Positions 5,450 through 59,270 of a stretch of DNA of 64,000 nt are shown one piece after another. The stretch comes from Ashinkailepas kermadecensis. Its lineage: Eukaryota; Arthropoda; Thecostraca; Neolepadidae. The first letter of the stretch is position 1, and every line of letters begins with the position of its first letter. The stretch lies in assembly GCA_034440615.1 (NCBI GenBank), contig JAOTOM010003703.1, positions 61,001 through 125,000 on the forward strand. Direction: 5' to 3'. The notes beneath the pieces were generated by a model that saw only the letters and a list, made by a program, of their open reading frames with translations, had not been told where the DNA came from and did no database searches. A program made the translations under genes and the position numbers.

Positions 5450-6365
5450 GCGGCTGCGATATCCTGGGCGGTACAGATCGTCTGTCTGTCCTGGCCCGGC
5501 TGTAGTAAGGCCGGCTGCGGTGTCCAGGGCGGTACAGGTCGTCTGTCTGTCCTGGTCCGGCTGTAGTAAAGCCGGCTGCGGTGTCCAGGGCGGCTGCGGT
5601 GGCCCGGCTGTAGTAAGGCCGGCTGCGGCGTCCAGGGCGGTACAGATCGTCTGTCTGATCTGGTTCGGCTGCAGTAAGGCCGGCTGCGGTGTCCAGGGCA
5701 TTACAGGTCGTCTGTCTGATCTGGTCCGGCTGCAGTAAGGCCGGCTGCGGTGTCCAGGGCATTACAGGTCGTCTGTCTGATCTGGTCCGGCTGCAGTAAG
5801 GCCGGCTGCGGTGTCCAGGGCGGTACAGGTCGTCTGTCTGTCCTGGCCCGGCTGTAATAAGGCCGGCTGCGGTGTCCAGGGCGGTACAGGTCGTCTGTCT
5901 GTCCTGGCCCGGCTGTAGGAAGGCCGGCTGCGGTGTCCAGGGCGGTACAGGTCGTCTGTCTGATCTGGTCCGGCTGCAGCAAGGTCGGCTGCGGTGTCCA
6001 GGGCGGTACAGGTCGTCTGTCTGATCTGGACCCGACTGTAGTAAGGTCGGCTGCGGTGTCCAGGGCATTATAGGTCGTCTGTCTGATCTGGTCCGGCTGC
6101 AGTAAGGCCGGCTGCGGTGTCCAGGGCAGTACAGGTCGTCTGTCTGATCTGGTCCGGCTGCAGTAAGGCCGGCTGCGGTGTCCAGGGCAGTGCAGGTCGT
6201 CTGTCTGATCTGGTCCGGCTGCAGCAAGGTCGGCTGCGGTGTCCAGGGCGGTACAGGTCGTCTGTCTGATCTGGTCCGGCTGCAGTAAGGCCGGCTGCGG
6301 TGTCCAGGGCAGTACAGGTCGTCTGTCTGATCTGGCCCGGCTGCAGTAAGGTCGGCTGCAGTAGA
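5450..6365. repeat. 61-bp minisatellite, about 15 copies
   Basis: The unit holds GGCCGGCTGCGGTGTCCAGG, then GGTACAGGTCGTCTGTCTG and ATCTGGTCCGGCTGCAGTAA. The copy at about 5582-5640 is shorter. Neighbouring copies differ at a few positions (GGTACAGG/ATTACAGG, CTGTAGTAA/CTGCAGTAA). The variants are interspersed, as expected from repeated unequal exchange. The unit is not a multiple of 3, so its open frames cycle through all three frames and are not evidence of coding. Confidence 0.95.
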
Positions 6366-20470: not shown

Positions 20471-21111
20471 CTTCCGGCCGGGCTCATTATCCGCCGGTGA
20501 CCCGCGGATATGCCCGGCGGCGACGCCAGGGCGACACGGTCGGTTGAAGGATCTGCTGGAAAGCCCACGGGTGCTGCCGTTGTCCAGAAGCATGAGGTCA
20601 CGGTGGTCACCCGAGTGGGCTGTATGTGCCAGAACGCTCCATTGTCCGTCGCCAACCAGTGCGCGCAGGGGGGGGGGGTGATTGGGAAGCTCAGAATTTC
20701 AACAGTCCGCGGTCATGGTGGGATGGCCTCAGTCACGGAACGCGTACATTATTTAGTCTCGGTCGGCTTGCGGCTGGCGACGGAAATACGTACTGTTCTC
20801 GCGACCATCACTTTGGCGTTAATGGTTTCCGATATTGTAACATCTTCAGTCAGTAAAAATGATAGCCTGGCTTGTTTCAGCAGTGCAGCCTTTGGGAGGC
20901 ATGTCCTGACCTTCAAGATTGATTGTTGTGGTTTATGGTTGTGGTTTATGGTTGTGGTTTATGGTTGCGCCGACGGTCCAGTAATATGAGGAACGCCTTT
21001 CACTTCAAGGAGCCTGCACCAGTCGTACGACAACACCGCCAGAAAACATGCGTTCGACTGTCGCAAGAGCAACATAGTAATAACAAGCCGATGGAGAGAC
21101 CTAGGTTCCTC
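20471..21111. other. Unassigned, with a 14-bp triplicate
   Basis: The segment contains three head-to-tail copies of GTTGTGGTTTATGG-type sequence at about 20925-20966. It otherwise shows no feature. The open frame running into the retrotransposon from 20923 is fortuitous upstream of the reverse-transcriptase similarity. Confidence 0.5.
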
Positions 21112-22523
21112 CATCCTATAGCAGTTCCTCTAGGTATACTTTTCAGGTGGTCTATGGAATACTCTGAAGTGTCTGAAGATTGGAGAAATGCAAATGTAGT
21201 TCCAATTTTCAAAAAGGGAAGTATGAAGTGTGTAGGGAACTACAGGCCAGTCAGTTTGACCTCAATAGTTTGCAAGGTACTAGAAAAACTGGTTAAACAG
21301 AATGTTCAGATTCATCTTGATAGGCACAATCTTTTAAGGGATACTCAACATGGATTTCGATCTCGAAGGTCTTGTTTAACTAACCTTTTGGAGTTCATGG
21401 AGTATGTTACTAAAGAAGTAGACAATCAAAACAGGATGGATGTTGTGTACTTGGACTTTAGCAATGCTTTTGATAAAGTTCCACATAGGAGGCTAATTCA
21501 TCAACTACAGCAACATGGGATTGTTGGAAAAGTTCTAGGTTGGATTGAAGCATGGTTGAGGGGAAGGAAACAAAGGGTAATGTTAAATGGATGTAAATCT
21601 GATTGGAAGGATGTTCTGAGTGGAGTACCACAGGGCTCTGTTCTAGGGCCACTTCTCTTTATCATCTTTGTAAATAACATTGAGGTAGGGCTGAGGAATA
21701 GAGTGTTCAAATTTGCTGATGACATCAAACTGGTAGGAGTGGCAAACAGTTGTGATCAATCTAGTAATATTCAACTAGACTTGGAGGACCTAAAAAGTGG
21801 GCTGATCAATGGCAGATGTCTTTTAACTATGACAAGTGTAAGGTTATGCATCTGGGGTCTGGAGGTGAGACTTTCAGATATACAATGGGAGGGAGGGAAC
21901 TGGATGTTATTGAAGAGGAAAGGGACTTAGGTGTGTTAGTTTCAAATGACCTTAAAGCAGAGAAACAATGTAGCTCAGCTAGGAACAGGGCACTCAGAAT
22001 GCTGGGACTCATTAATAGAAGTGTGATGTATAAGAGCAAGGAAGTCATGAAAAAACTGTACTTAGCATATGTGCGACCCCACTTGGAATATTCTGTGCAA
22101 GCTTGGAGCCCCTACCTAGAAAAAGATATAGACAAGTTAGAAAGAGTGCAACGCAAAGCAACTAAACTCATCAGTGGACTAGGTAGCTTAGAATATGGAG
22201 AAAGGCTTGTGGCATTAGATATGTACTCACTCAAGTATAGGAGATTAAGGGGGGACATGATTGAAATGTACAAAATTGTTAAAGGACTAGATCAGGTCAA
22301 TTTAAATGGTGCTCTTCAGTTTAAAGTATCACACAGGGGTCACCAACTCAGGTTAGACAAGTTGAGGTGTAGGACAGTTAAGCGACAGCAGGTCTTCAGT
22401 CAAAGGGTTGTTGATCAGTGGAATGGGCTGCCTGCTGATGTTGTGGGGAGTTCCTCATTGAATGTATTTAAAAGTAGGGTGGACAAATTTTTTAGGCAGG
22501 AAAATCTTGTTTTTGATTTCTAA
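21112..22523 (+). pseudogene. Reverse transcriptase ORF2 remnant, one frameshift
   Basis: In the first frame the RT palm and fingers motifs are intact: NYRPVSLTS, DTQHGFRSRRSCLTNLLEF, VYLDFSNAFDKVPHRRL, VLSGVPQGSVLGPLLF and the catalytic FADD (about 21712-21723). A single-base frameshift in the run of A at about 21790-21795 moves the continuation to another frame. That frame carries SFNYDKCKVMHLG, ERDLGVLVS, YVRPHLEYSVQAWSP and the C-terminus, ending with a TAA at 22521-22523. Apart from the truncation and this shift the copy is well preserved, so it is fairly young. As it stands it cannot make a full protein. Confidence 0.9.
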
Positions 22524-30999: not shown

Positions 31000-33800
31000 C
31001 ATAAAGTCATAAAGTCATAAAGTATTAAGGCTTAATAAGAGCCACAGGGGCCCATCTGGGTTAAGCCTATCTAGAAAAGGTACTATAAATGTACATACTC
31101 CCACCCCCATCAATCCCTTATCCCAAGTTCCTAGGAAGCTATATATCCCAGCCTATCTAGCACCACTCACTTGCTACCGCATAACACCCTCAACAATCAC
31201 AAGCTCCTCCCATCATACCCATCGTGCCACCATAGACAATCTCATCAGCATCACATCCCGAAGGAAGGTGCCGAATCCACTGCTAGGCACATCCCACACA
31301 AATTCATAAAGCGTTCAGACTTAATAAGAGACTCACTTGCTATTGCATAATACACTCAACAATTACAAACTCCTCCCAACTCTCAACTCCTCCCTGTCGA
31401 TCAACCCTCCCTGGAATACAGAAAAACAAGCCCCCTATTCTTATAATGATTGTCTATGCCGTTTTTAAAGATGTTCAGTGTGTTGCTACTGACAATGGTT
31501 CCTGGCAGCTAGTTCCAGTGTTCTATTACCCTGTTGGTGAAGAAGGACTGTCTTAACCTTGTCCTGCTGTGATTAACTTTAATTTTGAATTGATGACCTC
31601 TAATTGCATCATTTCTGTTAAATTCAAACATTTCCCTGAGGTATCCCTGTTCCTGACCATGAACAAATTTAAAAACCTCGATGAGATCTCCTCTGAGCCT
31701 TCTATATCTAAGTGAAAACATATTCGATTTCTTCCATCTTTCCTCATATGCCAGGTTGCCTATACCATTAACCATTTTTGTTGCCCTCTTTTTTACTCTC
31801 TCTAAAAGCCAACAATCTTTCTCATAACTAGGGGACCAAGCTTGGACACAGTATTCCAAATGTGGCCTGACATATGCACAGTACAGCTTCCTGATGACCT
31901 CCTCACTTTTGTATGACACATTCCTCTGTATTGCCCCAAGCATTCTTAGTGCCTTCTTCCTGGCTTCTTTGGTCTGTTCTGATGCCCCCAATTTTGTGTT
32001 CAAAATGACACCTAAGTCCTTCTCCTGCTGAGTCCCAGATAGTACTTGGCCACCCATCAAGTATGGAGCCTTCATATGCTGCCTACCTACATGCATAACT
32101 TTGCACTTATCAAAATTAAACTTCATTTGCCATTTTTTCGGACCACTTCACTAGCTCGTCTAAGTCTTTCTGCAGCAAAACCTGCTCAGTGTGCCCTGTT
32201 ATTGCCCTAAAGATCTTCAAATAATCCGCAAATTTCAAAACCTTACTGCTTAGGCCACATTCAATGCTATTCACATATATAATGAACAATAGTGGCCCCA
32301 GTACCGACCCCTGGGGGACTCCACTAAGAACATTTTGCCATGATGACTTTGTACCATTTAGCATCACTCTCTGCTGTCTATCTGAAAGCCACAACTCTAT
32401 CCATTTTAGGATGCTACCTGCAATACCATGGATCTGAAGCTGCATCATTAACCGTTTATGGGGTACCTTGTCGAAGGCCTTACGAAAGTCAAGATATGCT
32501 ACATCAACCTGATTTCCCTGATCAAATTGTTCTGTAGCAAAATTAAAAAAGTCCAAGAGATTTGTGAGACACGATCACCCTTTTCTAAACCCATGTTGAG
32601 TATCTTGAATCAATCTGTTTCCCTCCAGAAAACTAACTATTCTATCCTTGATAATTGATTCGAGTACCTTGCAGACTAGGGATGTGAGGCTTACTGGCCT
32701 ATAGTTTTCAACTTTCCCTCTTTTTCCTTTCTTGAAAATAGGAACTACATTTGCCCTTTTCCAATCTGTTGGAATTTCATTTTGCGAAACTGATCTACAA
32801 AATATTATACTAAGTGGAATTGCCACTTCCTTTTCACCTTCCCGCAATACCCTAGCATAAATTCCATCGGGTCCTGCTGCCTTGTTTGGCTTTATTTTTC
32901 TGATATAAATGAAAACAATATCACTATCAATGAAATCAACATCGTATATCTGATTACCTGTCACTGAACTGTGGTTCACGGTTGGCAGATTAGTCACATC
33001 CTCCACTGTAAACACTGATTTAAACTGCTTGCTCAGTTCCTCAACCATCTCACCATCCTCACTCAATATAGTCCCATTTACTTCCAGTGGACCAATTGTG
33101 CTTGAAACTTTACTTAGCTTGTAGAAACTAAAGAACTTTTTACTGTCCCCATTACAGTTCCTAGCCAAATCCAATTCTTTGGCTCGCTTTGCTGCTCTGA
33201 TTTTCTGCTTCACAACATCCCTAGATTTTTTATACGACCTTAGATTTACGATATTTGAAGCTTCCTTAAATACTCTAAATGCACCTTTCTTAGCCTTAAT
33301 TGGTTTCATCACATCTGGTGTAAGCCATGCTGGCTTTCTTACCCTTCTTTTGCTCCTTTGCTTTTGGGGGACATGTCTAATCTGAATTTCCCTCAAATAG
33401 GATTTCAACTCTTCCCACGTTTCACAGGCATTTAAATCAAAAAATTCTTCTTCCCATTTTATGGCACTTAAAGCCTCTCTCATGCAGTCAAAGTCTGCCC
33501 TGTTAAAATTTGGAATCTTTGCCAAATTATCCTTGATTGTTCCTGATACCTGTGCCTTGAATCTCACTATGTTATGGTCACTTTTTCCCAGAGTTTCTCC
33601 TACAGTCAAGTCTTGAACTAAATCACTTAAATCTGAGAAGACAAGGTCCAAGAATGAGCCCTGCCTGGTTGGTTCCGTTACAAACTGGTGTAAGAACAAG
33701 TCCTCTTCAAGGCATTTCCTAAACAGTTTACATGATGGGGAGCCAACACCAACATTTTCATATCCTTTTAGATTAAAGTCACCAAGAATAAGGCATTTCC
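31000..33800 (-). mobile_element. CR1-like non-LTR retrotransposon, long copy
   Basis: Read on the minus strand, the element begins inside the endonuclease domain (GDFN) near 33796. It continues through the linker, RT and C-terminal domains and ends in a UTR and three copies of the octamer ACTTTATG (CATAAAGT on the plus strand, 31000-31023). Its last ~80 bp match the element ending at 22821. The UTR looks partly duplicated: blocks with CTTGCTA..GCATAA.ACACTCAACAAT and AACTCCTCCCA occur at about 31155-31230 and again at 31325-31395. The 5' end abuts a different RT remnant. Confidence 0.9.
31509..33796 (-). pseudogene. ORF2 remnant: partial endonuclease, RT, C-terminal domain
   Basis: The reading path uses three frames: 33796-32575, then to 32116, then 32126-31509. 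It holds the endonuclease C-terminal half (LILGDFN, LVFSDL, GKSDHNIVRF), a basic linker, then RT motifs (NKAAGPDGI, VVPIFKKG, NYRPVSLTS, DTQHGFR, YLDFRKAFDKVPH, GVPQGSVLGPLLF). The catalytic FADD reads FADY (about 32224-32235), so the second metal-binding aspartate is lost. Frameshifts lie near 32560-32575 and 32116-32130. A stop at 31509-31511 truncates the C-terminus just after EHWN. The copy is inactive and more decayed than the one at 21.1 kb. Confidence 0.9.
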
Positions 33801-33802
33801 TC

Positions 33803-34330
33803 TGAAAGCGTGATTTAGCGACGTAATTGGAAAACCATAAAATGTCAATGCCGGATAAAGCAAGCTTTTCTGGAAGCTTTTTGTGGGTCACCACATCGAA
33901 GTACTTGGACTGGTTTAGCGACACCAAACTTGAAATTTTGTCTGAATCAATTGCGCATGGGATTTCGTCTGTCATATTATGGAAGTGCTATTTTAGTTTA
34001 ACGTTCTTTCCCGTGGCCATGCTGGGTGTCCGAAAGTGAATGCAAAGTATCGAGATATGCACCGAGTCAACTTGGAGCGAAATTCCGACCAGTTCATGAT
34101 TGCCAGAGGAATTGAGATGGGTCGCGTATCGACTGGACTGGTGGTAACTTTGCCCTTTGGTATCGAAACGACAGGCGTATGCTTCCACGAAGCTGGGACA
34201 TAGCCAGTGAGGACATAGCCAGTGATGAGGCTGGCGTTCACAATGTCAAGTAATGTACAGCGAATCCTCCAGAGAAAACCCCCGCATATGAACACTGGTG
34301 CCGTCAGCATGCCACCATGCCACATCAATA
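33803..34330 (-). pseudogene. Second, unrelated reverse transcriptase remnant
   Basis: Minus-strand frames carry LLDIVNASLITGYVPASWK-like and VSIPKGK...DTRPISI sequence (34330-34100). After a damaged stretch come TDEIPCAIDSDKISSLV, QSKYFDVVTHKKL and LALSGI..WFSNYV (33975-33810). These follow the RT order: fingers motif with PISI, then the first catalytic motif (usually FDxVxH, here intact as FDVVTH). The wording differs from the CR1-like copies, so this is another non-LTR family. At about 33800 it stops and the CR1-like endonuclease begins in the same frame. The later RT motifs are missing. Confidence 0.65.
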
Positions 34331-48905: not shown

Positions 48906-50284
48906 GCCGACCACGTCGGCAGCCCATCAATTTCTCGGCGCCTCGGCCATCGCTGAGCCGACGATTACGCGGGCGTCTGCGGCGCCGATGAAGACAGATT
49001 CCGCGGCTGTTCAGTGTTAACCGCGCCATCGAAACCTGACGCCGCGTCGAGCCGCTGTCTGGCTGCAGCCCGCCGATCGAGAGGGCCGGTGTAGCCGCGC
49101 CTCCACGCCCGGCACGCACGCCGCACGCCTGTTGACGGGAATTTCTCATCGTCGTCGTCGACGAGCCTTCAATATCTCGGCGGCGTAATGCCGACAGAGT
49201 CGGAAGGCATGAATACAAAGCGCGTACGCCCCCTCCGACGGATTGAAATATACGACAGATATTAAAGGTCGACATCTGCCGCCTGCGGACGTCGCCGCGG
49301 CGCACTGTTTTTGTCGTTGTTTTGACGCGGATAAAAACGGAGCGCCGCCGACCGACGGGTGGCCGGCCAGCTGTTGCCGGCCGACGCTCCGACTTCTGTC
49401 GGCAGTCGAACGCGACGCTCACTCCGGCGCGCGCCATCCTTTATTGCCAATAGCTCGCTGTGTCGTGAGAATAACGACCTCCTTTGAGAAGCCATTAAAG
49501 CCGGCTCGTGCAGATGACTCATAATTCACGGCCGGCGTCACAGCGCTCGTTCTGTGGCAGTGTGGGTCGGTGCGGCGGCGCCGGTTCACAAGGTGGGCGC
49601 GCCGAGAGGGGGCGGACAGGTGACGGCGGAGGGCCGCAAATGGAGCGGTCCCGGCGCGTGTGGGCCGGCCGTTCCATTCGAGACGGACGCCGTGCGATCG
49701 GCGAGGCGGCGCCCCGCTGCAGGCCGGGCGGTGCGCGCCGTTTTTGCCGGCCGCGCTGTTTGACCGCGATGATGAGAGCGACCACCACCCGCGGCGGAAC
49801 CGGTGGCGCGAGCACAACACGAGGTCGGACGCCTGACGCAGAAACGAGGCCGGCAGGCGCCGACGCCGACCGCAGTGACCGGCCGAGTTGTAGCGAAAAG
49901 ATGTGCCGCGTCCACCACCTAGTACTTGTCGGCACCGTGACACTGCGTGCCCCCGGCACTGACAGTGGCACGCAAGCGTGCGCTCACTGCCCTGAATAGC
50001 ACGTTTGAGCAGTGAGACTGACATGATGTGCTCGACGTTTGTGTAGCCTTCTGACATAGTCGTAAGCTTTTACTGCTGGCCATAGTGTATAGTGTTATTG
50101 TTTTACGACATCCAGGACGGATTGCGTCATGCCCGGCTACGGACTCACCGGGGGGGCTAATAACCGAGTTGGCACAAGCCGTGCAGTCGCGGCGTCCTAA
50201 AGCCGTAACAACCACCTCCGAATAGCCATATCGTGGCGGGTCAGTTCCGATCCCACGACCCCGCCATGTGGCACGATCCCCCGG
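48906..50284. other. CpG-rich island downstream of the Beat exon
   Basis: A CpG-dense block lies at about 48900-49960, with overlapping frames on both strands and no recognisable domain. It lies 3' of the Beat exon on the gene's strand. It could therefore hold later exons, but I cannot identify any. Confidence 0.4.
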
Positions 50285-51678
50285 CGGCCGGCGTGGCCTT
50301 ACTCCGAGTGTTGGTCGCCGTCCTGTCCAGCACGTGCGACACCTCCGACAGCCGAGCCTTACTCTGAGTGTTGGTCGCCGTGTTGTCCAGCACGTGCGTC
50401 ACCTCCGACAGCCGAGCCTTACTCTGAGTGTTGGTCGCCGTCCTGTCCAGCACGTGCGTCACCTCCGACAGCCGAGCCTTACTCCGAGTGGTCCCGTTTC
50501 CAGCGGCGTCACCTCCGACAGCCGAGCCTTACTCTGAGTGTTGGTCGCCGTGTTGTCCAGCACGTGCGACACCTCCGACAGCAGCCCTTACTGAGTGTTG
50601 GTCGCCGTCCTGTCCAGCACGTGCGACACTCGACAGCGAGCCTTACTCTGAGTGTTGGTCGCCGTTGTCCAGCACGTGCGACACCTCCGACAGCCGAGCC
50701 TTACCTCCGAGTGTTGGTCGCCGTGTTGTCCAGCACGTGCGACACCTCGAAGCCTTTTTGTTGGCCCCCTTCACGCGCGTCACCTCCCGACAGCCGAGCC
50801 TTACTCTGAGTGTTGGTCGCCGTGTTGTCCAGCACGTGCGACACCTCCGACAGCCGAGCCTTACTCCGAGTGTTGGTCGCCGTGTTGTCCAGCACGTGCG
50901 TCACCTCCCGACAGCCGAGCCTTACTCTGAGTGTTGGTCGCCGTGTTGTCCAGCACGCGCGACACCTCCGACAGCCGAGCCTTACTCCGAGTGTTGGTCG
51001 CCTGAGTGTTGGTCGCCGTGTTGTCCAGCACGTGCGTCACCTCCGACAGCCGAGCCTTTGAGTGTTGGTCGCCGTGTCCAGCACGTGCGACACCTCCGAC
51101 AGCCCTTTGGGGGCCGTGTCCAGCACGTGCGACACCTCCGACAGCCGAGCCTTACTTTGAGTGTTGGTCGCCGTGTTGTCCAGCACGTGCGTCACCTCCG
51201 ACAGCCGAGCCTTACTCTGAGTGTTGGTCGCCGTGTTGTCCAGCACGTGCGTCACCTCCGACAGCCGAGCCTTACTCCGAGTGTTGGTCGCCGTGTTGTC
51301 CAGCACGTGCGACACCTCCGACAGCCGAGCCTTACTCCGAGTGTTGGTCGCCGTGTTGTCCAGCACGTGCGACACCTCCGACAGCCGAGCCTTACTCTGA
51401 GTGTTGGTCGCCGTGCTGTCCAGCACGTGCGACACCTCCCGACAGCCGAGCCTTACTCTGAGTGTTGGTCGCCGTGCTGTCCAGCACGTGCGACACCTCC
51501 CGACAGCCGAGCCTTACTCTGAGTGTTGGTCGCCGTGCTGTCCAGCACGTGCGACACCTCCGACAGCCGAGCCTTACTCTGAGTGTTGGTCGCCGTCCTG
51601 TCCAGCACGTGCGACACCTCCGACAGCCGAGCCTTACTCTGAGTGTTGGTCGCCGTGCTGTCCAGCACGTGCGACACC
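50285..51678 (-). repeat. 60-bp minisatellite derived from the Beat exon end, about 23 copies
   Basis: The minus-strand unit starts GTGTCGCACGTGCTGGACAG and continues with CACGGCGACC, AACACTCAGAGTAAGG and CTCGGCTGTCGGAG. It is exactly 20 codons (VSHVLDSTATNTQSKARLSE), and the first unit continues the Beat exon in frame. About 21 copies keep the donor-like sequence GTAAGG, and about 20 keep CACGTG. Copies vary between Asp-Ser, Asp-Arg and Asp-Asn and between NTQ and NTR. Some carry a 1-base insertion (CTCCCGAC on the plus strand) or larger deletions (50581-50760, 51000-51120). Copies next to the exon are the most regular, suggesting growth away from it. Confidence 0.9.
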
Positions 51679-51887
51679 TCGGGCGGCCGGTCGCCGACGG
51701 CGCTCTCCTCCTGGCTCTGCCAGTAGCGGTCGCGCGCCAGCTCGGTGATCTGCGACACGCACTTGAGCTTGATGTTGCCGCGCCGGAAGTGGCGCGGCCG
51801 CACACGGAAGTGCAGGCCGACCGTGACCGACTCCAGGCCGTCGTCGTGGATTGTGGGCGGCCAGAGGCGCAGGTGCTCGAGCGCTGC
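51638..51887 (-). CDS. beat: Beaten path-like exon, second half of Ig domain 2
   Basis: Beat proteins are two-Ig cell-surface or secreted proteins of arthropod neurons that act in axon guidance and bind Side-type receptors. This minus-strand exon follows an AG acceptor (51888-51889, CGCCAG) in phase 0, matching the phase-0 donor of the exon at 57147. It reads DDGLESVTVGLHFRVRPRHF, a GNIKLKCVSQI strand with the second Ig cysteine, then YWQSQEESAVGDRPPE. The GLE...L.F.V...HF..G..KLKC...I and EES..GDRP patterns are characteristic of the family. ELARDRYW appears a few residues longer than usual. The 3' end is uncertain: I place it at the first GTAAGG (donor at 51636-51637), but the frame stays open through more 60-bp repeats. 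Third codon positions are almost all G or C. Confidence 0.85.
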
Positions 51888-51891
51888 CTGG

Positions 51892-52412
51892 CGGACACGA
51901 GGACAGTACAGGTGGGCGCGCTGTGACGGACACGAGGACAGTACAGGTGGGCGCGCTGTGACGGACACGAGGACAGTACAGGTGGGCGCGCTGTGACGGA
52001 CACGTGGACAGTGCAGGTGGGCGCGCTGTGACGGGCACGAGGACAGTACAGGTGGGCGCGCTGTGACGGACACGAGGGCAGTACAGGTTGGCGCGCTGTG
52101 ACAGACATGAGGACAGTACAGGTGGGCGCGCTGTGGCGGACAAGAGGACAGTACAAGTGGGCACGCTGTGACGGGCACGAAGACAGTACAGGTGGGCGCG
52201 CTGTGACGGACACGAGGACAGTACAGGTGGGCGCGCTGTGACGGGCACGAGGACAGTACAGGTGGGCGCGCTGTGACGGGCACGAGGACAGTACAGGTGG
52301 GCGCGCTGTGACGGACACGAGGACAGTACAGGTGGGCGCGCTGTGACGGACACGAGGACAGTACAGGTGGGCGCGCCGTGACGGACACGAGGACAGTACA
52401 GGTGGGCGCGCG
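51892..52412 (-). repeat. 35-bp minisatellite of 3' splice-site-like sequence, about 15 copies
   Basis: On the minus strand each unit runs CGCGCCCACCTGTACTGTC, then CTCGTGTCCGTCACAG. That is a pyrimidine-leaning tract ending in CAG. The last unit merges into the Beat acceptor (CTCGTGTCCGCCAG|GCAGCGCTC), only a few bases different. The array therefore looks like tandem copies of the exon's own intron end. Copies are 90% or more alike, with GACGGACAC/GACGGGCAC changes on the plus strand. Confidence 0.93.
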
Positions 52413-52929
52413 CTGGGTGGCGGCAGGCCACACATTCGGCACACAGCGCGCCACGATCTCCGCAGGCGAATGCACTCGGCTTCTGTTCCTCGTCTCCGCC
52501 TCCGCCCCACACATTATCACGAATTAGTGTTTACATTGCACGCCCACATTCGCATGAGACTGACAGACATAACCATGCAATTGGAGATAATATATAGGGT
52601 AGAGTGAGAAGAAAAAAGTTTAGAAGAGACCAAGGGGAGACAAAGAACAGAAAGGAGCACCTGGAAACAAACACCATTTTAACTTCATTTTGTGCCGAAC
52701 TTCACGTGTAATTATTGTGTATTCCATCGACATGTCGCGATTGGTCTTCTGGTTTTTCTTCGACTTTCCACTCGTACACTACATTCTGAGAAATATATCG
52801 CGACTTTCGCCTGCCTGCTTAAAACTGACTTTGGCACCCTGCACGGGGAGCGCTCAGACCACAAGTGACAACACTTAACGGAAACGGGCACCGGGGTCCC
52901 GTCTGACGCACTCAGCTCCTCCTAACCAC

Positions 52930-53060
52930 AACGTCAACCGGCAATCACGCGACATCAGAACGGGGGGCGAAACACCCGGCTGCATTCCAGTTTCGAACCA
53001 GCGACCACGCAGTCCGGTGGTGAGAACGATGCCACCGGACCAATGCGCCTCCTAAGGAGC
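52930..53060 (-). mobile_element. tRNA-like SINE remnant in the Beat intron
   Basis: The minus strand carries an A-box-like TGGTCCGGTGG (53032-53042 complement) and a B-box GGTTCGAAACT (52989-52999 complement) at tRNA spacing. The anticodon position reads CTCACCA, again CAC. The valine-like heads here and at 15.5 kb suggest related SINE families, although the bodies differ. The 3' limit is unclear and I see no target-site duplication. Confidence 0.5.
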
Positions 53061-54879
53061 ACCAGCACCAGCACCATAAACCAGCAGCCAGAGCACCAGC
53101 ACCATAAACGGCGATCGGTGCATTTGCAAGTCTTCACTGGAGAACCCCAACGCACTCAAGATACGAAAACAAACACAATTGACGCCGTCTCGTCGTTTTT
53201 TAACATTTGATTTATTTGTGGTTTCAGATTTAATCACGGCTCTTACAGATACAGCTGGGCAACTGCAAATTGCGACCTCACACAGCGTTTCGACGCCAAT
53301 GCTCCATAGATTGTAGTGTGAAGGGCTGTGTTTAATTGAGTATTTAGGCAAGAAAGAACATATGTTGAAATAAAGGAAATATACTATTCAAGTAGGAAAT
53401 TGTACGCATGTTCCGGATAGGTTGAAATATTTCACATATACGCGGCTGGTCTCGATAATTCAGACGAATAAGATGGTGAAGATCGATTTAAAACTTAATT
53501 TGCGTCCGATGTAAATCCTGCGTACAAAATACACAACTAGATGGATCGACATCCTGTATTTGAGAAAGTGTATCGTTATGATATATTATATTATTCCATT
53601 CTACATGAGCATATTGTGCATTGTAATATATTTCATCCGAAGGAAAAGTGTCATACTTGTATTAGTAATTGCAGAAGTTGTAGTTGGCTGGCAAGCTTTG
53701 CATCATTACAACTAAATTCGAATCATACCTTCACAATTTTATTCTAAGTGCTCATAACTAAAAAAAAATTGTTGTGTGAAATAGTTTCACATGTCCTGAC
53801 ACTAGGTTCAATTTTCTAGCTGATTGACATATTTTTTTCCCACAATGTTTTTTTTCATGCCCAGACACCTTGAAAACAGCCATGCATACATTACATTACA
53901 TTACATGCATACATTACAGTCTTTGGAGTTCTTGTGTCGCAACGCGCCGAGCGGCCGCCACTTACTGTTGTCCCCCCCCCCCTCGGATCTAATATACATT
54001 TTACTATGCACGCCGCACTCCCCGATATTTCAACACGATGCAGAACTCTAAATGTTTGTGGATGCGCCATAATGCATCAAACTGACGGTGATGCGTCAGG
54101 AAGCGTGTGTGCCGTAAACAAGGGTGACGAGAGACGAAACTCAAGGCCAGGCCGCGCCTCCAGAAGTGCTCTAAGCTGACATTAACTCTCCTGGAAATAG
54201 ATAAGCTCGCATTTTGTGAAAGTGATTTAGTTATCGTTTTATAGCACTTCACAGTTTGAGAAACGCGCGCATTAAACAGAGAGCGGTGGCATCTGTCGCG
54301 ATATTTCAGCCGACGGTTGGCCCAGAATTTCAGCGACTTTAAACTCCAAATCAGCGGCACTCCCGTGGGGGCAGACGAGATGACGCGTCAGAGTCGGTGA
54401 GCGGCGCAGATGTCGCGTCCGCGCAACAGCTGGTTGGAGCGATTCCGCTTCAGGCGGCGTCTTCCGTTTCTGCCGGGAGGAGCGACGCGTCGTGGAATTC
54501 CGGCCGCTTTTTGCGAGCAGCTACGAAAAACGGCACGTGATCTGGATGTATTTCGCGCCGCTAATTGAAGAGAATGCGAGCGAGGCGGCGGTGAGCGGAA
54601 TCTCGAGACAGCCGGCGACGGAAAGTTCAATATTTGCCCCGGTCGGCGCGCTGAAGTTTCAGCTGTCTTTTCAGCGCGATGCGTGTTTTCGGGCCGTTAC
54701 ATGAGGATCAATGTCCGATGACCGGGTAATTTGGGACACATTGACACCCCACACCCATCAGCGAGGCGCAGGGGGCGCCGCGACTGGCGAAGGCGAGGCG
54801 ACTGGCGAATTCGTGTCAGCACTCCCCGCTGCCACGCCAGCCGGACCCAACTGTCCAAACACACGGCGCGTGGCCGCTG

Positions 54880-55035
54880 ACACGCACACACGTACACCCG
54901 CGCACACACACAGACACACACAGACGAACACGCACACAGGCGCACAGACACACACACAGGCACACATATAGGCGGACATGCATGCGTACGTGCACGCGCC
55001 GACACAAGCACACACACATATACACACACATGCAC
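54880..55035. repeat. Degenerate CA microsatellite
   Basis: CACACA and CAGACACACA tracts with ACGT interruptions over about 155 bp inside the Beat intron. Confidence 0.9.
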
Positions 55036-55548
55036 ACCAGTGTTAAACGAATGGTTTTTCGTTAGGTGTGAGATGTCGATACGACTGCAGTAGGATGTCG
55101 GAATTTGCAATGGAATTTATTTCGCTTCAAATATCGCCTAAGTCCTTCAAGCTAAATTTTGAACTAATACGCGCACTCACAATGAACGTTTCTGTTTTGT
55201 TTTACACCTAACATATGAATACCTACATTAATGACAATGAAAAAATAGCATGCTATGAAAAAATAGTACGGTATAACAGATCACGTCATAGGTAATTCCT
55301 GCACACATAATTGTGCTACCAAATGCTTGTGTATCACTATCCACAATGGTGAACATAAGCAAGATATTTATACAAGCGATGCTGTTCAAAATGAGCCATA
55401 GAGTCTTCATACCACACATTAAGAAGCACCATGTTGATACTTATTTGGGAAGGATGTCCATTCATTGTGAATAGACAATGTCGAAAGTGGTATATTACAC
55501 CCTTATTTCACGAATAATTTATCACTGATGCACACACATACACACAGA

Positions 55549-55708
55549 TCATGGCTGGAGAACCCGGGTGGGTCGGAGAAGTTTTGCACCCAGCCCCTGG
55601 TTTGATGACCTACTAATGTTAAACTGTCATTTTCCCTATTCAATCTGAAAATATGTGTTGAAAATAAGAGCTTGGACCCCCGGCTTCGTGAGAGATCTCC
55701 AACCATGA
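55549..55708. mobile_element. Short inverted-repeat element, copy 2
   Basis: The ends TCATGGCTGGAGA (55549-55561) and TCTCCAACCATGA (55696-55708) are inverted repeats matching at 12 of 13 positions around about 130 bp with no coding capacity. The interior matches 29336-29488. It lies between two CA-type repeats, just as the other copy lies at a minisatellite edge. A non-autonomous DNA transposon is the best guess. Confidence 0.6.
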
Positions 55709-55719
55709 CACGGATACAC

Positions 55720-56250
55720 ATGGCGCCACGCCCTGACACGAATACACCCACGCAAACAGACATGAAAGCATGGATACAGACACGCACACCTAGAGACACA
55801 CAGACGCACAGAGGCATAGAACACACAGACGCACATAGGCATAGAGACGCACAGACACACAGAGACACAGACGCGCACACATAGAGGCACACATACACAC
55901 AGAGGCATTGAGACACATACACACCGACACACAGAGACACAGAGAGGAACGCATAGAGACACATAGACACACAGAGGAATAGAGACACACACAGATACAC
56001 AGAGAGGCACACATAGAGACACGGAGACACACAGACACACAGAGGAATAGAGTCACGCGGACACACAGAGGCACAGAGAAACACAGACACATCAAAACAC
56101 AGCGACGCACACAGAGGCACAGAGATGCATACATAGAGACGTACCACACACGGAGGCATAGAGGCACATACAGACACCGACACACAGAGGCACAGAGACG
56201 CAAGCATAGACACACAGAGACGCACAAACATTAAGACACACATGACTCCT
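55720..56250. repeat. Degenerate CACAGA microsatellite, about 530 bp
   Basis: Loose repeats of CACACAGA, GGCACAGAGA and CATAGAGACA form a 6-12 bp quasi-period. It is Cys/Val/Leu-rich when translated on the minus strand, which gives long spurious frames. Confidence 0.9.
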
Positions 56251-56572
56251 TGAGCATTTATACAGGCGCTCAGACTGTAGCAGTTGAACACAGGAGTCGC
56301 ACCACACTGTCGCAAGGCCCACATCTACACCTACACTACATCTATACCTACATCTACACCTACACTGACACTCACAAAGGTGTACCTACATAATTTCGTT
56401 CACATCCTGACGCATTGACACAAGCTGCAAACATAGCGTAGCAACGGTTAAGAAGGGGAATCGGTACCTTTTCTACACATTTCATCACAATGTTATGCAA
56501 GGCTACGCCGACTGGCCGCGAGTGTACGTGAAAATCGAGCGGTTGGTGAGATTCAAACCACAAGCTGCATGA

Positions 56573-56660
56573 TTCCAGGTCGAAGGCTCCAGTCGCCAGA
56601 TTTCCTCCCCACGCGTTCCAGGTCGAAGGCTCTAGTCGTCAGATTTCCTCCCCGCGCATT
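56573..56660. repeat. 44-bp tandem duplication
   Basis: Two copies begin TTCCAGGTCGAAGGCTC and end AGATTTCCTCCCC-CGCG. The first reads CCAGTCGCC and the second TAGTCGTC. Confidence 0.85.
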
Positions 56661-57146
56661 CCATGTGAGCAGTGTACGCGTAACGATATGTCTCCATCAG
56701 CATGTCCAAATTCAGTTTCAATTGAGAGTCGGATGTAAATAAACATCGTCGAATTTTGTTTTTAAATATGTACGTAAAATGTCGGATGGTACATAGTACA
56801 TCTTGCATCCAGCTATATAATATGATTCTTCGTCTGCGTACAGCTCATCACCACCTTAAAATCCATAAACGGCAATTGAAGGTCATTTATGCCAGCTGAG
56901 TTTCATCGGGTTCCTATTTGTTTGGGGGTGCACTGATATAGACATACGGGAGATGTCAGCACGAAGCTAAATGGTTTACTTCAGATGAAAATAATTATCC
57001 TGTTATGTGTCGTTTTCCACCCCATTTGTCGACTTTGGAGACAACAGTGTATGCACACCACTCGCAATTGCATGCCACCTGTTCGCATTAACGCGCGCAG
57101 AGGTAGATTCAGGATCACGCATGAGAGCGCAGTTCGATCTGCCTAC

Positions 57147-57280
57147 CTCCTCGCTGTTGATGTACCACGTGAGCTGGGCAGCAGGCTTGCTCCTGTGCGA
57201 GCTGCAGTTGACCTTGACATGGTCGTTGACCTCGTACCGGGACTTTCCCCCTGTGATGACCGGACCGTCCTCCGGGAGCA
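57147..57280 (-). CDS. beat: Beaten path-like exon, first half of Ig domain 2
   Basis: This 134-bp minus-strand exon is bounded by an AG acceptor (57281-57282, CCGGCAG) and a GT donor (57145-57146, GAG|GTAGGC). It starts in phase 1 and ends in phase 0. Its 44 complete codons read LPEDGPVITGGKSRY, VKVNCSSHRSKPAAQL and TWYINSEE. P.DGP.I.G...RY...D.V.VNC(T/S)S..SKPAA.LTWYIN is the hallmark opening of the second Ig domain in Beat proteins, with the first Ig cysteine (VNC) and core tryptophan (TWY) present. One difference is N where GD is more usual (EVNDH). Exons for the signal peptide and first Ig domain are not found up to 64 kb, consistent with long introns. I cannot assign the paralogue. Confidence 0.88.

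Positions 57281-58805: not shown

Positions 58806-59270
<465 letters not shown>

Follow-up and report, generated by a model that had tools for sequence, protein, structure and literature searches.

Minisatellite-like duplications of intron-exon boundaries, called mirages, have been described in lancelets, where either the 5' or the 3' boundary is repeated (PMC3087553, PMC3902484). In the excerpted text of these papers, the examples comprise Adh3, troponin C, the globins BflGb6 and BflGb9, and PGBD5, and the AG or GT signals are present in many, but not all, of the copies. The repeats of PGBD5, of 60 bp and 108 bp, overlap exons 3 and 4 together with their splice sites (excerpts of PMC3902484), and the excerpted RT-PCR results suggested that regular splicing was unaffected by mirages (PMC3087553). 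In human IFI6, two downstream repeat units serve as donors, according to the excerpts of PMC4526556, and intron gain via the tandem duplication of proto-splice sites is treated in the excerpted text of Lehmann et al. 2010 (PMC2891723).

The locus compared with these systems is an exon with a minisatellite at each edge, located in a window of 64 kb, i.e., the whole stretch of DNA that was analysed. Its features are collected in Table 1.

Table 1. Features of the Beat exon and its two flanking arrays, in positions of the window
Feature	Position	Strand	Basis
Beat exon of 250 bp, entered in phase 0 and left in phase 1	51638-51887	minus	Translation; paralog exon likewise 250 bp
Preceding Beat exon, VLPEDGPVITGG...YINSEE, open	57147-57280	minus	Translation
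Array of about 60 bp, 24 units including the exon's own tail	50296-51680	minus	TRF and unit listings
First donor GTAAGG, putative functional 5' splice site	51632-51637	minus	Position and phase as in the paralog donor GTGAGT
Last GTAAGG of the array; the intron past this point departs from the unit	50297-50302	minus	Unit listings
AG of the putative functional acceptor (CCAG/GCAGCG)	51888-51889	minus	Position and phase as in the paralog acceptor CTGCAG/GCGGCT
35-bp array, 15 units at a spacing of 35 bp, all containing a pyrimidine-rich stretch	51892-52411	minus	TRF and unit listing

The assignment of this exon to a Beat gene, proposed by the first-pass annotation, was borne out by its translation (AALEHLRLWPP...EVSHVLDSTATNTQ) and by the matches of the two joined exons. 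The joined query of 129 aa matched Beaten path Vc in PDB (9nsf_A, E 1.8e-9, query residues 1-98), followed by Beaten path Vb (9np7_A, E 2.8e-8), and Pfam C2-set_2 was above the cut-off. The 85-aa fragment encoded by the 250-bp exon alone gave no match in the Pfam or PDB scans, and no match was obtained in a phage search. As predicted from these matches, the gene is a Beat-type Ig protein gene, and the exon encodes the later portion of the second Ig domain plus the stretch that follows. Beat-type genes are nerve-wiring genes. Beat proteins are usually those of arthropods, and the source organism is presumably an arthropod as well.

The genome (907.7 Mb in 4689 contigs) contains a paralogous exon, L002 on contig C4255, which is also 250 bp long and has the same phases and junction positions as the Beat exon. 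TRF found no array at either edge of this paralog. The intron between the two Beat exons (51888-57146) is about 5.3 kb long, compared with about 0.6 kb in the paralog, as judged by eye. An interspersed origin of the units was considered and rejected: with the Beat exon as query, 43 nt of which belong to the 60-bp unit, 2 candidate places were scored, and the only matches were its own locus and the paralog. A genome search with the 35-bp array recovered the array itself and, at 66%, one distant stretch (C4449:188181-188691).

The unit of the donor-side array consists of the last 43 nt of the Beat exon followed by GTAAGGCTCGGCTGTCG, the 43 nt of the first unit (51638-51680) being the exon's own tail. 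It is a perfect copy of the junction, as all of the 24 nt around the donor are repeated 60 nt downstream. The motif GTAAG or GTAAGG was present in 21 of the 24 units and was absent only from three units with large deletions. This survival could be read as selection, but the units vary at few positions anyway. Relative to the exon copy, units 2-5 had 0-1 substitutions and no more than one gap, and the later units had 0-6 substitutions and as many as 22 gap positions. The correlation between divergence and distance from the exon was weak and suggestive only (Spearman 0.42, p 0.05). The 9-mer CCGGCCGCC occurs in the exon just before the unit (51682-51690, minus) and recurs in the intron past the last unit (50283-50291), as would be the case had the first duplication arisen by slippage between short repeats. 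A 9-bp match bracketing the array was reached by 47 of 2000 shuffle pairs and by 3 of 1280 25-mers of the window, which is of modest significance.

Extension of the exon to donor 2 or donor 3 adds 60 or 120 nt in frame (20 or 40 residues), and the reading remains open. Two 61-bp units follow donor 3; extension to donor 4 leaves the exon open with a frame shift of one base, and extensions to any of donors 5-21 contain a stop. Judged from the sequence, the Beat exon most likely ends at the first donor. The earlier count of about 23 downstream copies agrees with the 24 units found when the exon's own tail is included, and the donor-like GTAAGG attributed to the unit was also found; the claim that the unit continues the exon in frame holds for donors 1-3 and fails from donor 4 on.

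The array on the acceptor side has a different relation to the exon. A 24-nt window centred on the acceptor matched the 35-bp array at only 15/24 positions, whereas a window centred 14 nt inside the intron matched at 23/24. The array repeats the end of the intron and halts 4 nt short of the junction, and its CACAG differs from the real CCAG. CACAG was present in 13 of the 15 units, with CACGG in one and ACCCAG in the outermost. A 6-nt CAGCGC is common to the exon head and the 35-bp unit in near register, and 1307 of 20,000 shuffles and 171 of 9140 16-mers of the window did equally well; this match would be weak evidence for a first duplication that reached the exon. A 6-bp slippage repeat at the acceptor side was not significant, being equalled by 440 of 2000 shuffles. 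The exon frame can be read through without a stop from all 15 upstream array sites, one of which has no AG. Six of the 15 add a multiple of three, and the nearest adds 33 nt in frame, with the reading open. The preceding Beat exon showed no tandem copy at either junction, the best windows reaching 13/24 and 12/24 (150 nt flanks).

With respect to the first-pass annotation, the figure of about 15 upstream units was confirmed. Its description of the unit as a near match of the intron end that finishes in CAG was correct for the intron end and overstated for the junction itself. The independent amplification of both junctions is supported at the donor, whereas the array at the acceptor abuts the junction and does not span it.

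The first-pass annotation proposed that the arrays could change the length of the exon, make splicing slower, or give rise to isoforms of variable length. The open extensions at donors 2 and 3 also fit a reading in which these donors are sometimes used and would insert 20 or 40 residues behind the second Ig domain. Any such insert would lie outside the matched domain, as the match to Beaten path Vc stops at residue 98 of 129, before the tail; the nearest acceptor decoy likewise adds its 33 nt in an open frame, and IFI6 provides a precedent in the excerpted text of PMC4526556. However, the exons ending at donors 5-21 run into a stop and the paralog has no array. A search for a two-unit protein reading found only P0002 among 3 candidates, and P0002 lacks a second unit. 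We therefore regard the production of isoforms by the array as unlikely, with a small chance of being correct.

The last 43 nt of the Beat exon are identical to the paralog at 27/43 positions (best of 10,000 shuffles, 23), and the exon search aligned the paralog to bases 1-221 of 250 only, the tail being less similar than the body. The relative protein P0002 reads EVSQVLDSTADSRKSKT, with S-K directly past the tail, which, as deduced from the protein, would fit an A/GTAAG donor at this position; two further relatives, P0001 and P0004, differ inside the tail and lack S-K. Because the paralog has equal length, junctions, and phases and no array, one copy of the donor unit is most likely the ancestral state. 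The intron end differs between the paralog and the Beat exon, and thus the single-copy origin of the 35-bp unit has no support from the paralog. The proposal that one copy of each unit is ancestral consequently survives for the donor unit, with the paralog tail and P0002 in its favour and P0001 and P0004 against it, and finds no backing for the 35-bp unit.

The lower similarity of the tail could also indicate that the Beat copy is a decaying gene, in which damage at an exon edge would be harmless. This is very improbable, since the exon is open and shares its 250-bp length, phases, and junctions with the paralog, and the preceding exon is open as well.

The frequency of such copies was estimated in a survey of Ig-domain exons. 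From a genome search for I-set (150 matches listed from 864 first-look candidates), 28 exons were hand-picked from the upper part of the list, mostly as open frames of up to about 200 aa and not strictly by rank. The picks were made in two sets, 18 and then 10 after the first 18 had been read, and each exon was chosen before its own sequence was viewed. L045 and L058 were left out owing to unclear junctions. A copy was scored when a 24-nt window centred on the junction was matched at 19/24 or more positions. As a result, a tandem copy was found at 8 of 52 junctions (95% interval 7-28%) in the remaining 26 exons, which represent one domain family and whose junctions were assigned by eye. These were the donors of L044, L057, and L059, the acceptors of L046, L049, and L051, and both junctions of L052. 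At least one duplicated junction was thus present in 7 of the 26 exons, and L052 alone was duplicated on both sides.

The best-matching copy was on the intron side at all 8 duplicated junctions, and the splice dinucleotide GT or AG was kept in 16 of 18 copies. L052 (C4134:215077-215634), and not the Beat exon, is the double-sided exon by the strict measure; its donor unit of 30 bp occurs about five times, and its acceptor copy is diverged. In L049 (C3460:51600-52148), the intron end and exon head occur twice, 75 nt apart, which looks like the first step of a boundary array. Copies below the threshold, which were apparent by eye and not counted, were seen in L041 (17/24), L056, L060, and L062 and at the acceptor of L059, some of them apparently cut at the sequence edge. 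In L037 and L039, arrays stop short of the acceptor, by 6 and 11 nt respectively, as on the acceptor side of the Beat exon. The uniqueness of the locus is ruled out by the survey, with copies at 8/52 junctions and one double-sided exon. The Beat-type arrangement looks common rather than unique in this repeat-rich genome.

Copies were also found in 434 of 2080 random genome windows of equal extents (20.9%) and in 273 of 1020 intron windows at the same loci, at least 36 nt from the edge (26.8%). Junctions were lower than the random windows at every threshold from 15 to 24, and the two rates did not differ significantly (two-sided binomial p 0.40). Exon-interior windows gave 8/1337 (0.6%), and exon midpoints 0/26. 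At the junction, the duplicated fraction was 13%; within the exon, it decreased to about 4% at a depth of 40 nt and was 0-1% past 55 nt. In this sample, therefore, junction duplication is about as frequent as duplication of anonymous DNA or somewhat rarer, and exon interiors are protected. We lean towards the view that natural tandem splice-site copies are present at roughly one in seven splice junctions of the genome.

Two arrays at one exon, together with the 7 affected exons among 26, might suggest that splice junctions are preferred sites of amplification, e.g., via transcription-linked or structure-linked instability. Such a preference is highly doubtful, as it is unsupported by rates at or under the background. 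Equally hard to credit is an assembly artefact in which the arrays arose from collapsed or stuttered reads: array lengths are hard to assemble, but the units differ by substitutions and indels and comparable structures are found at exons of seven further contigs.

The window contains 23 arrays, which occupy 13.7% of its DNA. On other contigs, 45 minisatellites were counted in 200 kb (225 per Mb, 15.4% of DNA), although the random controls, the first 10 kb of 20 contigs, may be enriched in repeats, at which contigs tend to break. The array repetition at the Beat exon exceeds chance; arrays are, however, very dense across the genome. Strict donor-like words were present in the unit of only 3 of the 68 arrays examined, two of the three being halves of the Beat array, and most arrays thus show no obvious splice-site origin. 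The third is a 61-bp array in the window (5600-6359, plus) whose unit contains CTGCAGTAAGG, and it may be another splice-junction array. The window also has a long TCTCCG/TCTCTC hexamer tract at 58872-59268 and long open frames at 20923-22523 (plus) and 31509-33987 (minus), which presumably resemble non-LTR retrotransposon reverse transcriptases.

Taken together, it is probable that splice-junction minisatellites arise as a by-product in a genome that generates minisatellites nearly everywhere, that they are tolerated, and that the exon-proximal sites are mostly used. The observations behind this reading are the arrays themselves, a donor unit identical to the exon tail, the single-copy paralog, and comparable copies at other exons. 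Slippage between short direct repeats would duplicate a stretch that crosses the exon edge, as at the donor, or abuts it, as at the acceptor, and the array would then expand by ordinary tandem turnover. Duplication across the exon edge would be tolerated, and close to neutral, because the exon retains one intact junction, with the additional copies lying in the intron. The spliceosome would take the exon-proximal donor and acceptor in most transcripts. With about 15% of junctions affected per side, about 2% of exons are expected to be double-sided if the sides are independent, i.e., 0.6 among 26, and 1 was found; the double arrangement at the Beat exon accordingly needs no special mechanism.

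At this locus, identical donors recur every 60 nt and acceptor-like modules every 35 nt, and the single-copy paralog provides a natural control, which bears on splice-site choice among equals. The survey suggests that junction duplication is close to neutral and exon-interior duplication is not, which bears on intron lengthening and on new intron positions. If the rate of one in seven holds across genes, thousands of exons, by extrapolation, would be flanked by near-identical competing donors or acceptors. This would provide a ready-made natural experiment on the choice of the spliceosome among identical sites at fixed spacing, and it would bear on the route by which boundary arrays have been proposed to give rise to new introns and longer exons. 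Should the frequency extend beyond this sample, the mirage observation made for a few lancelet genes would become countable genome-wide in another animal.

The first-pass annotation had known of no described locus with this double arrangement. As a class, the arrangement is not new: in the excerpted mirage papers, both 5' and 3' boundaries are duplicated, and L052 shows double-sided copies more strictly than the Beat exon. No case affecting both edges of one exon is described in the excerpts of PMC3087553 and PMC3902484, and a literature search, barnacles included, noted boundary minisatellites only for lancelets and IFI6 among the matches listed, as far as their excerpts go.

Judged by its units, the Beat donor array is similar to the mirages in being a tandem array (24 units), in having a unit that spans the boundary (24/24), and in carrying splice signals in 21/24 units. 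The acceptor array abuts the intron-exon boundary, whereas the unit of a mirage spans it, and would not be classed as a mirage. The Beat locus further differs in the type of gene and in having arrays at both edges of one exon. Variation of the copy number among haplotypes or tissues counts as a further feature of mirages. The minisatellite of IFI6 / G1P3, which was reportedly found by Turri et al. in 1995 to supply several donor sites, resembles the Beat array in offering several donors at one exon end. According to the IFI6 excerpts, its downstream donors are used, whereas those of the Beat exon are known from sequence and frame. The 24 units at the Beat donor compare with 3 or 6 in the BflGb6 haplotypes and 2-7 in PGBD5, as given in the excerpted mirage papers; the share of affected junctions was estimated here, and those excerpts hold no such estimate. 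In the excerpted model of Lehmann et al. 2010, as at the Beat locus, the tandem duplication of splice signals alters gene structure; there, a duplicated exonic stretch becomes an intron, whereas at the Beat locus an existing intron grows and the exon is kept.
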